The position numbers and the translations under genes were made by a program. The notes below the pieces were generated by a model. It was not told the DNA's origin, did no database searches, and saw only the letters and a program-made list of their open reading frames with translations. Positions 6,315 through 18,594 of a DNA stretch of 64,000 nt are shown one piece after another. The DNA is from Bacillota bacterium (lineage in GTDB: Bacteria; Bacillota; Clostridia; Tissierellales; Peptoniphilaceae). Position 1 is the first letter of the stretch; every line of letters begins with the position of its first letter. The stretch covers positions 1 to 64,000 of the forward strand of contig JAUNLQ010000002.1 in the NCBI GenBank assembly GCA_030532225.1. Direction: 5' to 3'.

Positions 6315-7604
6315 TTAAACAGTTCTTGCTGATTGTTTAGTAAATCCAGTTTCGTTAGTAGCTCCAGTTATAGCTTGAAGCTCAACTTCAATGGTTCCGT
6401 CTTCTCTTAGAGACTTGTCGTTACCACCAGCAATAATATTTACATATTGGATGTCTCCAATAACTTTATCAAGTTTTGGTAATACAATAACTTCGTTAGC
6501 ATTTCCTGCAGTTACACAAGCATTAGCAAGTGGGTCAGCATCTGCCAAAGATTGGCTTAGACCGTCTTGGCCAGCATATTCGTCAGTTATAATTACTGTC
6601 TTGATATTCTTTTTCTCAATCTTCTTGCAGTTCATTATTAAGTCTGTATCTGGATTACCAAATCCTTCTTGAGAAATAATAACAGCATCTGCACCTAAGA
6701 ATTCTACTAACTTAGCAGTAGTATCTGATGATCTTTGTTTGTCCATTAGATATACGTTTTCGTTAGTAACTACAACTCCTAGGAAGTTCAAAGTTTTTCC
6801 GTGTTCTTCATAAAGTGACTTAATTACATCATTGTTTAAATGAACATAAGTTGGGTTTTTGTCACAAGCTGATACACAGTTACCAGAGATTACTGCACCA
6901 TCCATAATTTCTGTTGGGTATAAATATGTTGGGATAATCTTCTTGGCATCTACTCCATAAACATAAGTGTCATGTAGTAGACCTTGAGTTTGTAGCATAT
7001 AAACATAAATTACCTTTGGAAGATCTGGGTATTCTTGAACTTGTTCAAGAAGAGGCTTAGTTTCATAAACCTTAACGTTTTCAGGTTCATGGTCCTTAGC
7101 TAGGCTTCCAATAAATCTTGTAACCTTTAATCCGATCATTCTTACAGAGTGTTCGTGATTATGTTGTTTTACACCTTCTTTTGGGTTTGTAATTACAACT
7201 AATGATACAAGCTTAGAAAATGGAGTATATTCTGCTCCTGGTCCTGTCATGTCGATAATTCCTTCTTGGAAACCAACAATTTTACCAGTAGTCATTACTG
7301 CCATATCCTTTAAACAAATAGTCTTACCTGATCCTACGGTATCAACTTTTCCTAGTACTCCTGGGAAAAATTCTCCGCCTTCAACCTTATACCTTGGTTC
7401 AAGAACATCTTTTACAGGTGTGATTCTTACACTTTCTCCTGGATGAACAATATCGAAGTCTATGTCTTCAAGATATTCGTCATCTTCAAAGCCTGATTCT
7501 CGAACAAGGTCTTCTTTATTAAGGTAAAGGATGCCATCTTCAAGTTTTGATTCTTGGGCAAACTTAATATCCTTAATAAAGATTTCACCTAATTCTAGAC
7601 GCAT
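6315..7604 (-). CDS. grdE: Glycine reductase component B, precursor GrdE
   Basis: 429 residues, the usual length of the GrdE proprotein. In this family the chain is cleaved before a cysteine to give two subunits, the smaller bearing an N-terminal pyruvoyl group that forms a Schiff base with glycine. The conserved site is visible as SGNCVSACDKNPTYVH, placing the scissile Asn242-Cys243 bond in the middle of the protein. The ATG start has a clear AAGGAGG. It stands between trxA and grdA, the canonical place. Confidence 0.95.
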   Translation of the reverse strand: MRLELGEIFIKDIKFAQESKLEDGILYLNKEDLVRESGFEDDEYLEDIDFDIVHPGESVRITPVKDVLEPRYKVEGGEFFPGVLGKVDTVGSGKTICLKDMAVMTTGKIVGFQEGIIDMTGPGAEYTPFSKLVSLVVITNPKEGVKQHNHEHSVRMIGLKVTRFIGSLAKDHEPENVKVYETKPLLEQVQEYPDLPKVIYVYMLQTQGLLHDTYVYGVDAKKIIPTYLYPTEIMDGAVISGNCVSACDKNPTYVHLNNDVIKSLYEEHGKTLNFLGVVVTNENVYLMDKQRSSDTTAKLVEFLGADAVIISQEGFGNPDTDLIMNCKKIEKKNIKTVIITDEYAGQDGLSQSLADADPLANACVTAGNANEVIVLPKLDKVIGDIQYVNIIAGGNDKSLREDGTIEVELQAITGATNETGFTKQSARTV

Positions 7605-13641: not shown

Positions 13642-13656
13642 ATTGTGGAGGTTTTG

Positions 13657-14553
13657 ATGGAAAGTAAACTTTATAAAAGAAGAAAACTACTTGGTTTGAC
13701 CCAGTTAGATCTTGCATTATTAAGTGGAGTAAGTGATAGGACAATTAGAAATCTAGAGTACAAAAACACCCAAGCTAATCAAGAAACTATTGAAGCCCTG
13801 ACTTTAGGATATAAATTAAGTCCCAAGGATTTATATAGGATTCATAATTATTATGATTTAGAATTTGGATTAGCAAAATTAGATCAAATGATAATCAGCA
13901 AATATAATGATATAACTAGTTCTGACACTAAAGACTTTGTTGATGAATTAGAAAAGAAGGTTCAAAATTTAAATGAAAACACCTTTGAGTATTATTATTC
14001 CAACCAGCACTTATATTTTTTTAAGGGCGTTATAGAATATTATTCCCAAAATTATCAGCAAGCTTATTCTTATTATATTAAGGCTCTTAGATTTACTTTA
14101 AAAGATTTTTCCATGAAGAATATTTTTTATTATTTAGATTATGCTGAGGTTCTATCTAGGTTAGAAATTAGAATAATTTATGACTTGGCTTCCATCTGTC
14201 ATAATTTAGGCGATAGTGAATTAAGCTTAAAAATAATTAATATTTTAGTTGAAAAGGTTGATACTAACTGGAACTTTTACTGTGAAATCCTTTCTCACAA
14301 GGCCATAAGTGAATACAGGAATGAAAACTATAAAGAGGCTTTAAGCTATATTAATAAGGCCTTAAAGTCTGCACAAAAACTTTCTCACTATAAAAACCTA
14401 CCCTTGTATTACTACAACCGAGCAGCTATTAAAATTCGTCTAGATGACAAATCCTATATTGAAGATAAAAATACAGCCTTAGATTTATGTGACTATATGG
14501 GACTTGATAATTTGAAAAAGTATATTTTAAAAAAAGTTTTTAAATGGGAATAA
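13657..14553 (+). CDS. XRE-family HTH regulator with TPR-like C-terminus (RRNPP-like)
   Basis: 298 residues from the ATG at 13657, preferred because TGGAGG lies 5-6 bases upstream; a GTG 12 bases earlier overlaps that site. Residues 1-60 form an XRE helix-turn-helix (RRKLLGLTQLDLALLSGVSDRTI). The rest is all-helical with tetratricopeptide-like repeats, for example ENYKEALSYINKALKSA. This layout is that of RRNPP (Rgg/PlcR/PrgX) regulators, which bind short signalling peptides in the TPR domain. It is a paralogue of the regulator at 16923-17819. The cognate peptide, if any, is not evident beside this copy. Confidence 0.75.
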   Translation: MESKLYKRRKLLGLTQLDLALLSGVSDRTIRNLEYKNTQANQETIEALTLGYKLSPKDLYRIHNYYDLEFGLAKLDQMIISKYNDITSSDTKDFVDELEKKVQNLNENTFEYYYSNQHLYFFKGVIEYYSQNYQQAYSYYIKALRFTLKDFSMKNIFYYLDYAEVLSRLEIRIIYDLASICHNLGDSELSLKIINILVEKVDTNWNFYCEILSHKAISEYRNENYKEALSYINKALKSAQKLSHYKNLPLYYYNRAAIKIRLDDKSYIEDKNTALDLCDYMGLDNLKKYILKKVFKWE

Positions 14554-14847: not shown

Positions 14848-15453
14848 TTAAAATGTTTTTTTAGAAATTATAGACTCATACAAGTCCTCTAAGGTTCTAA
14901 ATGGCTTTTCAATATCCAGAATATTAATTTTATTTTCAACTAAGAACAAAATCATAGTCTGTAAATTTTCACTGGCTACTGCCACTTGAAAATAGTCTTT
15001 CTTTTCAGGATCTGAACTAGGTTCTGCTAGAAAGCCCTTGCTTTTTATAAGGTCAAGGGCAGCTGTATTGTTGCTAGTTTTTATTAGATAAGTTTTGGTA
15101 TATTTAAGGTCTCCTATATAACTGTCTAAAACTAGCTTGCCACCTTCTATCATCACAATCCTATCAGCAACTTTTTCTATTTCTGCCAACTGGTGAGAAG
15201 ATAATAAAACTGCACAGCCTTCATTCCTTAAGTCTTCTAGTTCCTTTCTCAGTTCTATAACTCCATCTGGATCTAAGCCGTTCATAGGTTCATCAAGCAT
15301 AATTAATTTTGGTTTTGCCATTAATACCATGGCCAGCATCAACCTCATTTTCATACCCAAGGAATAAGTAGCAACCTTGTAGTTAATTTTATGACCCAGG
15401 CCACTATAGTCAACCATTTCCTTAACTCTTTCCTTGCTAGAATTTGTCCACAT
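14848..15453 (-). pseudogene. ABC transporter ATP-binding protein, truncated at the N-terminus
   Basis: 201 residues remain. Present are the Q-loop-to-signature region (signature YSLGMKMRL), Walker B (LIMLDEPMNGLDP), the H-loop (LLSSHQ) and a C-terminal domain. The first roughly 90-100 residues, with the A-loop and the Walker A lysine, are absent. The codon just before the apparent start is a stop, and I see no Walker A remnant in the 80 bases upstream. Without Walker A it could not hydrolyse ATP, so I call it a decayed gene. It resembles ATPases of two-gene exporters for bacteriocin immunity, but no intact permease follows. Confidence 0.7.
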
Positions 15454-15534: not shown

Positions 15535-15819
15535 CTAATCATTTTTGTTTTTCCTCTGTTCTATTAACTTTCCAATAAAATAAATTAAAAGATTTATACT
15601 TGTTATTAAGACAATACTAATCATCATGTTATGAAAATTCATTTTCTTGGTCAGTAGAGAATAGAGGACAAAGAACCCTAAAATTTCAACTACAAGTTTT
15701 ATGATATTTTTAGGATTATCTTTATTAATAAGAACAAAGATAATAAGAGCCAAAACGCCATTAATATAATACGGGTTTATCTTTAGTAAAATTTGTGAGA
15801 GATTTCCAATAAATACCAT
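15535..15819 (-). CDS. Small hypothetical membrane protein
   Basis: 94 residues with about three hydrophobic segments (residues 17-31, 41-56 and 63-83) and a charged C-terminal tail (EQRKNKND). It overlaps the end of the upstream secreted-protein gene by 37 bases in another frame, so translation may be coupled. A ribosome binding site is not obvious. Small polytopic proteins next to secreted peptides often give immunity, but nothing in the sequence proves that here. Confidence 0.5.
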   Translation of the reverse strand: MVFIGNLSQILLKINPYYINGVLALIIFVLINKDNPKNIIKLVVEILGFFVLYSLLTKKMNFHNMMISIVLITSINLLIYFIGKLIEQRKNKND

Positions 15820-16427
15820 TTTCCAAATCCTTCATATTCATCGTATTGATATCTTTGCTTGGTGTATATTTTAAATCCGTGAAGAATATCACTAGCTGAT
15901 AACCCCGACAAAATTAAACTAGCTATATTAACAACGGCAAACAAAGTTCCTAAGCCCATGTTAGTAACTATATATTTAGCTAATGCATCTTCGGATACAC
16001 GATTTTTTATAAAAGCGACAGCAGATATGCCACCTATCCAACCAAAATATCTAGCCAGTTCATCAAAATCAAAGGTATAGGTAAGGTATCGAATTTGACC
16101 ATCATAAGAATATGTAGTGAAAATCCTATTATTTTCTTTATTGGTGTTTGTAAATTCTTTCATATGGAAAACCTGTGTAATTCCACTAGCCTCAGCTAGT
16201 TTTTCTGGCAACTTTAAATCTATACCCATTTGATTTGCTTCTTTCTGATATAAGGCTATCATTTCTTCTATAGTAAAGTCAAATTCTTTTAGTTTTTCAT
16301 AGTAACTATCATAACTATAAACACTTGAATACGAGTTTGTTTTGTAATACGCTGATATCAAAACAGGATTAAAAGCTGCGATAATAATATTAATTGCTAT
16401 AAATATACTCAAAAATCTTTTTTTCAA
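15783..16427 (-). CDS. Secreted or membrane-associated hypothetical protein, bacteriocin-like features
   Basis: 214 residues, starting at a TTG with GGAGG 6 bases upstream. A signal peptide is likely (KKRFLSIFIAINIIIAAF, cleavage near residue 25). The middle is hydrophilic. The C-terminal third holds two glycine/alanine-rich hydrophobic stretches (GWIGGISAVAFI and GLGTLFAVVNIASLILSG) that could insert in a membrane. I recognise no family with certainty. It lies downstream of the small secreted-peptide gene and upstream of a small membrane protein, an arrangement that fits a bacteriocin or toxin with its immunity factor. This remains inference. Confidence 0.5.
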   Translation of the reverse strand: MKKRFLSIFIAINIIIAAFNPVLISAYYKTNSYSSVYSYDSYYEKLKEFDFTIEEMIALYQKEANQMGIDLKLPEKLAEASGITQVFHMKEFTNTNKENNRIFTTYSYDGQIRYLTYTFDFDELARYFGWIGGISAVAFIKNRVSEDALAKYIVTNMGLGTLFAVVNIASLILSGLSASDILHGFKIYTKQRYQYDEYEGFGKWYLLEISHKFY

Positions 16428-16657
16428 TTTATTCCTCCGATAAAATTTTCACTTTGAAATATGCTTAATTCATTTTTATTAAACTAAAATTCCATAAATT
16501 TTACCACAAACACTAGTTATCTTTTCTCATAATAATCAATATAATATTTCGGTAATGTTTTTTTAGCATAATAATAAAAATATTTAATACTTTGAGTTTA
16601 AATCCATACTTCTTAAGAATTCTAACTATGTTCTTAAAGTAAACTTAAAAAATATGA
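16428..16657 (-). other. AT-rich spacer between the peptide gene and the secreted protein
   Basis: 230 bases, very AT-rich. It holds only an 18-codon minus-strand frame with no ribosome binding site. A GGAGG near 16433-16437 serves the downstream TTG start. No terminator with a convincing stem is seen, so the peptide gene may be co-transcribed with the secreted protein. Confidence 0.4.
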
Positions 16658-16828
16658 CTAAAGTTTAATAATAAATTTTCTTTCCCTTGATAGAAAATAT
16701 CCTTCATTATAATTTTTTTGCTCATAGTAATCCTCTTGGTCAGCAAGGCGAATTAGCCTATCATTTCTTTGTCCTAGGCTAAAAAATATACAAGCTATGA
16801 GTAATGTAAGGGTTGCTTTCTTCTTCAC
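16658..16828 (-). CDS. Small secreted peptide precursor (56 residues), candidate signalling pre-peptide
   Basis: A 57-codon frame from GTG at 16828 to TAG at 16658. It has a perfect AAAGGAGGTG ribosome binding site 6 bases before the start, one of the strongest in the window. The product begins with MKKKATLTLLIACIFFSLG, a typical positively charged plus hydrophobic export signal, followed by a 37-residue polar tail ending in RKFIIKL. It is divergent from an XRE/TPR regulator with a 10-bp inverted repeat between them, the arrangement of RRNPP quorum-sensing pairs, where a short exported peptide is trimmed and re-imported. The mature peptide cannot be read from one sequence. A tail as long as 37 residues is more than many Phr/PapR-type peptides have. 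Confidence 0.65.
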   Translation of the reverse strand: MKKKATLTLLIACIFFSLGQRNDRLIRLADQEDYYEQKNYNEGYFLSRERKFIIKL

Positions 16829-16876
16829 ATTACACCTCCTTTCATGTTATTATGGTAGTAGAAATTCTTTTTATTT

Positions 16877-16900
16877 TAAAGTGTAAACAATTACACTTTA
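16877..16900. promoter_or_regulatory. 10-bp-arm inverted repeat, putative operator
   Basis: TAAAGTGTAA (16877-16886) and TTACACTTTA (16891-16900) are perfect arms around ACAA. The repeat ends 8 bases before the regulator's ribosome binding site. On the other side it abuts the expected -35 position of a CATAAT element (16854-16849) facing the peptide gene, which has no good -35 of its own. This would fit activation of the peptide gene and autoregulation. Confidence 0.6.
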
Positions 16901-16922
16901 CTTCTCCAAGGAGGGATGATAT

Positions 16923-17819
16923 ATTAATAATTTATCACAGGCTTTAATAAAAAGAAGGCAAGAATTAAATTTATCTTTGAAAGATTTAGAGGAAATTTCT
17001 GGCGTAACTAAAAAAACTATTATTAGAATAGAAAAAGATGGCCATATTCCATCTGTTGAAACTATCCTGGCCCTATCTACTGCCTTGAAAACTGATCTTT
17101 TAAAAACTCTAAGTCCTACTTGGCTAGAAAATATTTTTGATATGTCTAATCTTTCTGAGCTCAAATATATGGTCGAGAAAATGTTAGATGATAACCAATT
17201 TTCAAATTTGCCAGATATTCTTGAGATGCTTAATAATATTTTTGATAATTTAGTCGACCAGGACTTATCTTTATACTTGTACCAAATTATTTTATTTTTA
17301 GATGGAATTTTTTTAGATACTAAGGAAAGGGATTTTAAGTTAGCTTCTGAAAATTTTTTAGAGGCCTTAGCTTTAACTGTAAGGGGTTTTGATATAAATC
17401 ATTTTGAATCTTTCCCTTATAACTACTTTGAGTCGAGAATTCTTATGAACGCTGCCTTGTCTTTGAACAAGTTAGGGGAATTTGAGTTTTCTAAGAAAAT
17501 CTTTTTATTTTTATTGAAGATTGTTGATAAGAAGTCCCAAATTTATATTTCCATACTCCATAACTTATCTATTTTCAAAGCTAGAGAAAAACAATACAAA
17601 CAGTCCTTGACTCTAATTAACAGGGCTATAGATTTTTCTAACAAATTTAGGAATTTTTCTAAGCTTCATACTTCTTATTATCACAGGGGAATTATTGAAT
17701 ACAATTTAGGTCTGGAAAATTTTAGAAACTCTTTTGAGCTAAGCAAGTCCTTGGCAACTGCCTATGGCTATGATGATTTTTTAAAGTTTTTGGAAGAAAA
17801 GATGAAAAAATATATATAG
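16923..17819 (+). CDS. XRE-family HTH regulator with TPR-like C-terminus, start uncertain
   Basis: About 298 residues if begun at ATT 16923. The helix-turn-helix reads LSQALIKRRQELNLSLKDLEEISGVTKKTI and is followed by an all-helical TPR-like region (KQYKQSLTLINRAIDFS). Architecture and length match the paralogue at 13657-14553. The start is odd: AGGAGG at 16909-16914 precedes an ATG at 16916 in another frame that stops after three codons. The correct frame has no ATG, GTG or TTG until TTG 16977, which would cut the first HTH helix. Either ATT is used with an 8-base spacing or a small frameshift has occurred at the N-terminus. A role in sensing the adjacent secreted peptide is inferred. Confidence 0.7.
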   Translation: MNNLSQALIKRRQELNLSLKDLEEISGVTKKTIIRIEKDGHIPSVETILALSTALKTDLLKTLSPTWLENIFDMSNLSELKYMVEKMLDDNQFSNLPDILEMLNNIFDNLVDQDLSLYLYQIILFLDGIFLDTKERDFKLASENFLEALALTVRGFDINHFESFPYNYFESRILMNAALSLNKLGEFEFSKKIFLFLLKIVDKKSQIYISILHNLSIFKAREKQYKQSLTLINRAIDFSNKFRNFSKLHTSYYHRGIIEYNLGLENFRNSFELSKSLATAYGYDDFLKFLEEKMKKYI

Positions 17820-18499: not shown

Positions 18500-18594
18500 T
18501 GGCGGAGACGAGTGGGAATCGAACCCACCCGAGAAGAACTCTTCTCACAACGGTTTTGAAGACCGCAGAGCACACCAGAAACTCATTCGCCTCC
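18500..18594 (-). tRNA. selC: tRNA-Sec (anticodon TCA)
   Basis: A 95-base tRNA with an 8-bp acceptor stem (GGAGGCGA with TCGTCTCC, one G-U pair), discriminator G and encoded CCA. The anticodon loop is CTTCAAA with TCA at 18557-18559. The long variable arm (GAGAAGAGTTCTTCTC) and the GGTTCGATTCC T-loop are intact. These are the features of a bacterial selenocysteine tRNA. It starts only 6 bases after the LysR stop codon, on the same strand, and is followed by a terminator. Confidence 0.97.

Follow-up and report, generated by a model that had tools for sequence, protein, structure and literature searches.

The published systems compared here are given as they stand in excerpts of the cited reports. 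In Streptococcus pneumoniae, the TprA/PhrA and TprA2/PhrA2 systems combine a PlcR-homologous regulator with a Sec-exported small peptide, the two genes being oppositely oriented; repression is relieved by the peptide, and control extends to nearby genes for antibacterial-type peptides (PMC7595303; PMC5436883). In the systems of Bacillales the peptide is encoded downstream of its receptor (PMC9765709). Candidate subfamilies reported by RRNPP_detector consist of a receptor of 250-500 amino acids (aa) and a precursor of 10-100 aa encoded next to it, and one Peptoniphilaceae gene cluster is mentioned in that work (PMC10075063). Beyond this mention, the excerpts retrieved in our literature search contained no account of such peptide signalling in these anaerobes. 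We analyzed the first 64,000 nucleotides of contig JAUNLQ010000002.1 (assembly GCA_030532225.1; hereafter referred to as the window), which come from a Peptoniphilaceae bacterium congeneric with Neofamilia massiliensis. Here a gene for a 56-aa peptide and a gene for a regulator with helix-turn-helix (HTH) and tetratricopeptide repeat (TPR) domains lie back to back, with an inverted repeat in between (Table 1). An earlier note on this DNA had proposed that the two form a quorum-sensing pair of the RRNPP superfamily.

The regulator is very likely a peptide receptor of the PlcR type. Its 298-aa sequence contains an HTH_3 domain (E 2.4e-11) and matches RNPP_C and TPR_12, both below the cut-off. 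A profile of 27 relatives from the wider family matches PlcR end to end (5-287; E 1.4e-17) and also matches ComR, and RNPP_C is matched in seven of the 27 at E <= 0.01. Fold comparison with a modest-quality model of the regulator ranked NprR and PlcR first. The locus resembles PlcR-PapR of the Bacillus cereus group in the combination of HTH and TPR domains, in the similar fold of the modest model and in the full-length profile match, which rests on the wider receptor family and not on the close relatives of the window's regulator alone. Unlike the PlcR-PapR arrangement, the peptide gene is divergent and not downstream. In length and in its N-terminal HTH followed by a TPR domain, the regulator falls within the limits set for RRNPP receptors (250-500 aa), and the divergent 56-aa gene within those set for an adjacent precursor (10-100 aa), as in the RRNPP_detector candidates. 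Oligopeptide-binding proteins scoring above the family cut-off are encoded in the window's genome.

The peptide frame extends on the minus strand from a GTG at 16828 to a stop at 16658 (56 residues plus stop). It is preceded by a perfect Shine-Dalgarno (SD) site, AAAGGAGGTG, in which 6 nt separate GGAGG from the start, and is the only open reading frame (ORF) with an SD site among the listed ORFs of at least 12 codons in 16428-16990. The product, MKKKATLTLLIACIFFSLGQRNDRLIRLADQEDYYEQKNYNEGYFLSRERKFIIKL, begins with the export-type N-terminus MKKKATLTLLIACIFFSLG; it has three lysines and a hydrophobic stretch, whose best ten-residue hydropathy of 3.0 exceeds the limit of the survey described below. 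A candidate signal-peptidase site, S-L-G, was spotted by eye, and the C-terminus is ERKFIIKL. The frame, its perfect SD site and its export-type start had been pointed out in the earlier note, as had a repeat with 10-bp arms between the divergent genes, and both descriptions proved correct. The frame is likely to be translated and exported.

At the level of genes, the divergent order of a PlcR-like regulator and a small exported-type peptide is that of TprA/PhrA. The window peptide lacks the Phr C-terminal heptapeptide (LDVGKAD, VDLGLAD), and therefore the pair is arranged like TprA/PhrA but is not a member of that group. It also differs in that no lanthionine genes were seen at the window locus and in that the regulator has no ordinary start codon. 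By analogy, the locus is plausibly of the PlcR/TprA-like kind, with the pairing itself a candidate.

Table 1. Coordinates of the peptide-regulator locus and adjoining genes in the window
Feature	Position	Strand	Remark
Candidate pheromone precursor, 56-aa frame	16658..16828	minus	GTG start; export-type N-terminus
Peptide gene SD site AAAGGAGGTG	16833..16842	minus	
Inverted repeat TAAAGTGTAA-ACAA-TTACACTTTA, predicted operator	16877..16900		Conserved at L032 9956-9977 and L122 6661-6682 (both N. massiliensis)
Regulator SD site AAGGAGGG	16908..16915	plus	
PlcR-like HTH+TPR regulator, 298 aa	16923..17819	plus	Predicted ATT start
214-aa protein, next gene after peptide	15783..16427	minus	TTG start; export-type N-terminus
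94-aa hydrophobic protein	15535..15819	minus	Overlaps 214-aa gene
ATP-binding cassette (ABC) transporter ATPase remnant	14848..15453	minus	N-terminal ~100 residues gone

The arms of the inverted repeat are perfect over 10 bp. When the mononucleotides of the 91-bp gap were shuffled 5000 times, 45 of the resulting sequences held a 24-bp stretch of equal symmetry. Allowing up to two mismatches, the repeat pattern occurs at one site in the window's genome and at three sites, one of them weak, in N. massiliensis; the reversed pattern, used as a control, gave no sites in this search.

The open frame of the regulator begins at 16920, behind a TGA, and contains no ATG, GTG or TTG until 16977. The TTG at 16977, given as the start in the ORF list, was rejected since a start there would cut into the HTH. 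At SD distance there is a single candidate initiator, an ATT at 16923, 8 nt from GGAGG and 94 bp from the peptide gene. ATT is rare as a bacterial initiator. The string from the SD site to this ATT, AAGGAGRGATGRTATATTAATAAT, has, with at most one mismatch allowed, a single occurrence in the window's genome and two in N. massiliensis (G097), and was absent from the other 128 family genomes searched. The start codon is ATT in all three DNA copies (16908-16931, L032 9986-10009 and L122 6691-6714), which are identical except for one base. Among relatives in the protein database, P0003 is called from an upstream ATG, reading through the SD region, and the four others (P0004-P0007) are annotated as beginning inside the protein; such odd starts are expected if an ordinary start codon does not exist. 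A predicted ATT start is the simplest reading of these data. The L122 copy (6661-6760) consists of the operator, the SD site and the first codons only; in place of its own regulator, a different HTH-TPR regulator follows about 150 bp on. This copy looks like the stump of a regulator.

To place the pair in its family, we surveyed small ORFs beside related regulators. Matches to the regulator profile were found in 116 of 130 family genomes, many of the listed ones covering the HTH only. Sixty-eight nearly full-length matches were chosen by eye among the matches listed, and 66 were examined. The survey excluded the window's own regulator and G083, as well as matches that were incomplete or lacked the start of the HTH (e.g. 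G030:C10:171619, G026:C69:9, L017, L019 and L022). A small ORF was counted when it was 20-100 aa long, had an SD site, a K or R among residues 1-10 and hydropathy of at least 2.0, and lay no more than 300 bp away. Such an ORF adjoined 33 of the 66 regulators: on the same strand 16 downstream and 2 upstream, besides 9 convergent and 7 divergent (one locus is counted twice). Two of these ORFs, at L018 and L020, are unconvincing by eye, and 31 of 66 remain without them. The controls, in which one small ORF may count for two neighbouring genes, gave 3/20 for HTH-only regulators, 4/50 for neighbouring genes and 8/79 for the genes of the window and eight other loci. In the divergent position, the counts were 7/66 for regulators versus 1/149 for controls (0/20, 0/50 and 1/79). 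The Fisher p values (4.8e-10 when every position is counted, 0.0012 in the divergent position) are too small because the loci are related and not independent, 56 of the 66 coming from one genus (g3). Up to six PlcR-like receptors were examined in a single genome. The survey suggests that such receptors are common in the family and often have a small exported-type peptide gene next to them.

A tree of 67 receptors was used to follow the arrangements; L018 and L020 were set to none, L087, L089 and L094 were added from a relaxed scan, and L003 was dropped as a copy of L032. The downstream arrangement is clustered on the tree (4 changes versus a shuffled mean of 13.7), as is the convergent one (5 versus 9.6); in each case none of 500 shuffles was as low. 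Propeptides with a PISIY core occur beside all five members of one receptor clade of genus g3 (Shimodaira-Hasegawa-like approximate likelihood ratio test, SH-aLRT, 98). Tandem copies are present in four of the five loci (four copies in L010, two each in L025, L026 and L027), and L058 has one (IPISIYSL). In the excerpted sources, repetition of the mature peptide is described for AimR, NprR, PlcR and Rap systems (PMC9765709; PMC11343458). The short signal candidates supplied by the survey are clearest in these PISIY repeats.

The cases nearest to the window layout are the divergent ones (L013, L065, L068, L069, L076, L084 and L097). At L065, in N. massiliensis, a 43-aa peptide gene is divergent at 132 bp. 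At L068, a divergent 46-aa peptide gene at 88 bp is followed by a gene for a 154-aa protein, thioredoxin-like by eye; L067 and L071 have a nearly identical receptor and the same next gene without the peptide. Likewise, of the near-identical receptors L007 and L011 only the former has the peptide, which was lost in L011. Peptide turnover beside a stable receptor occurs in the Peptoniphilaceae receptor family.

We lean towards the 56-aa peptide being the signal of this regulator. From the frames, SD sites, repeat, divergent order, PlcR match of the family and oligopeptide-binding-protein genes we infer the following scheme of export, processing, uptake, binding and control. The precursor would be exported by the Sec route, shedding about its first 19 residues. 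A short fragment, probably from the C-terminal part, would be re-imported by an oligopeptide permease and bind in the TPR groove of the regulator, which would then release, or alter its grip on, the inverted repeat. The three minus-strand genes, for the peptide, the 214-aa protein and the 94-aa protein, may form a single operon whose products would be made jointly at high cell density.

Several observations weigh against this assignment. The profile built from the close relatives of the window's regulator alone matches no solved structure. In the survey, the other 33 of the 66 relatives have no small ORF by the rules applied, 15 of the 149 pooled controls do have one, and the divergent arrangement is unclustered on the tree (10 changes versus a shuffled mean of 9.6). 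A consensus scan found no minus-strand promoter. The peptide forms a one-member database cluster, P0001, from its own contig; no homologue was found among 5.8 billion proteins, and its best match outside its own genome in the 130 family genomes has an E value of 0.0039. Conservation beside orthologous receptors, which is not a defining feature of the RRNPP superfamily, was not seen: the N. massiliensis orthologue of the regulator (65% identical) faces a transporter operon and lacks a neighbouring small ORF preceded by an SD site. The earlier note had itself set conservation of the peptide gene among relatives as a test, and for this peptide that test came out negative, the N. massiliensis orthologue included. 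Given the peptide turnover seen elsewhere in the family, this weakens the pairing without refuting it. Of the proposed RRNPP pair, the receptor half is supported by the PlcR and ComR profile matches, the RNPP_C matches and the fold ranking; the pairing is plausible by analogy, through the enrichment of small ORFs.

The orthologous locus points to another explanation. There the regulator, repeat and start are kept, yet the opposite genes encode two membrane proteins (permease type by eye) and an ATPase, and the second repeat-and-start copy in N. massiliensis, L122, lies opposite genes for a membrane protein and a lipoprotein-like protein of 393 aa. From the transporter the window retains only the ATPase from about residue 104 on. 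This remnant is 73.5% identical to the L032 ATPase over 204 columns, from residue 96, in an alignment that runs across a stop near residue 102. Genes for the peptide, the 214-aa protein and the 94-aa hydrophobic protein occupy the place of the transporter. The regulator could then be a peptide receptor whose signal is made elsewhere or by other cells, and the 56-aa peptide could be swapped-in cargo, such as an accessory or antibacterial peptide of the 214-aa and 94-aa genes; receptors without a peptide of their own ("eavesdroppers") are discussed for the superfamily in the excerpted source (PMC9765709). The enrichment of small exported-type ORFs beside the regulator's relatives argues against cargo, as does L054, where a relative of the 214-aa/94-aa pair has no such peptide directly before it. 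We regard this explanation as possible, though on the unlikely side.

The truncated ATPase and the disappearance of both permease-type genes from the window would also be compatible with the frame being what is left of a longer protein, exported or membrane-bound, after the transporter operon was broken up, and the N-terminus would suit a membrane protein equally well. Similarity of the peptide to the 450-aa protein of N. massiliensis is not significant (133 of 1000 shuffles scored as high for the whole peptide, and 53 of 1000 when only the residues beyond the hydrophobic stretch were compared), and no better-than-chance relative of the peptide was found in 6001 frames of the fetched loci; such an origin is improbable. 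Least probable of all is a chance ORF without a product: it would account for the single sequence, the failure to find a homologue and the GTG start, while against it stand the signal-like start and the perfect, well-spaced SD site; an ORF of this kind is seen in the divergent position in only one of 149 controls.

Relatives of the 214-aa protein are 208-268 aa long and 39-45% identical. At L054 (5496-7930), the gene for a 208-aa relative overlaps the next one, which encodes a 90-aa hydrophobic protein, the same order as in the window's pair; close by are another hydrophobic ORF, of 86 aa, and an ORF that looks transposase-like by eye. Decayed copies of the 214-aa gene are present in L055 and L056, from two other genomes, and the 208-aa/90-aa gene pair looks mobile. 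Family searches named no function for the 214-aa protein, and fold comparison of it came back empty; a secreted antibacterial protein with the 94-aa protein as its immunity partner would fit. A more far-reaching proposal, rather unlikely and offered tentatively, is a pheromone switch whose cargo can be exchanged. In this genus, a PlcR-type receptor with an AUU start would remain in place together with its operator while the opposite slot is refilled, with a transporter operon, with a lipoprotein-like and a membrane protein, or with a peptide, a secreted and a small membrane protein. In the window the slot would have gained a private pheromone, turning a transporter-controlling or eavesdropping regulator into a self-signalling one. 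The window contributes an example of opposite genes changing next to a receptor and operator that persist.

A second HTH-TPR regulator of the same superfamily is encoded in the window at 13645-14553. Its flanks hold no small ORF that combines a good SD site with a signal-like start; divergent to it is a gene for a 203-aa protein with a weak DUF4352 match. On contig 13 of the same genome (L123 2196-2726), a third such receptor is represented by a fragment of 176 aa that lacks the HTH part and adjoins a 424-aa permease-type protein. The window also contains a tRNA-Sec gene (anticodon tca, 18500-18594, minus strand) and ORFs judged by eye to be selenocysteine and glycine-reductase genes.
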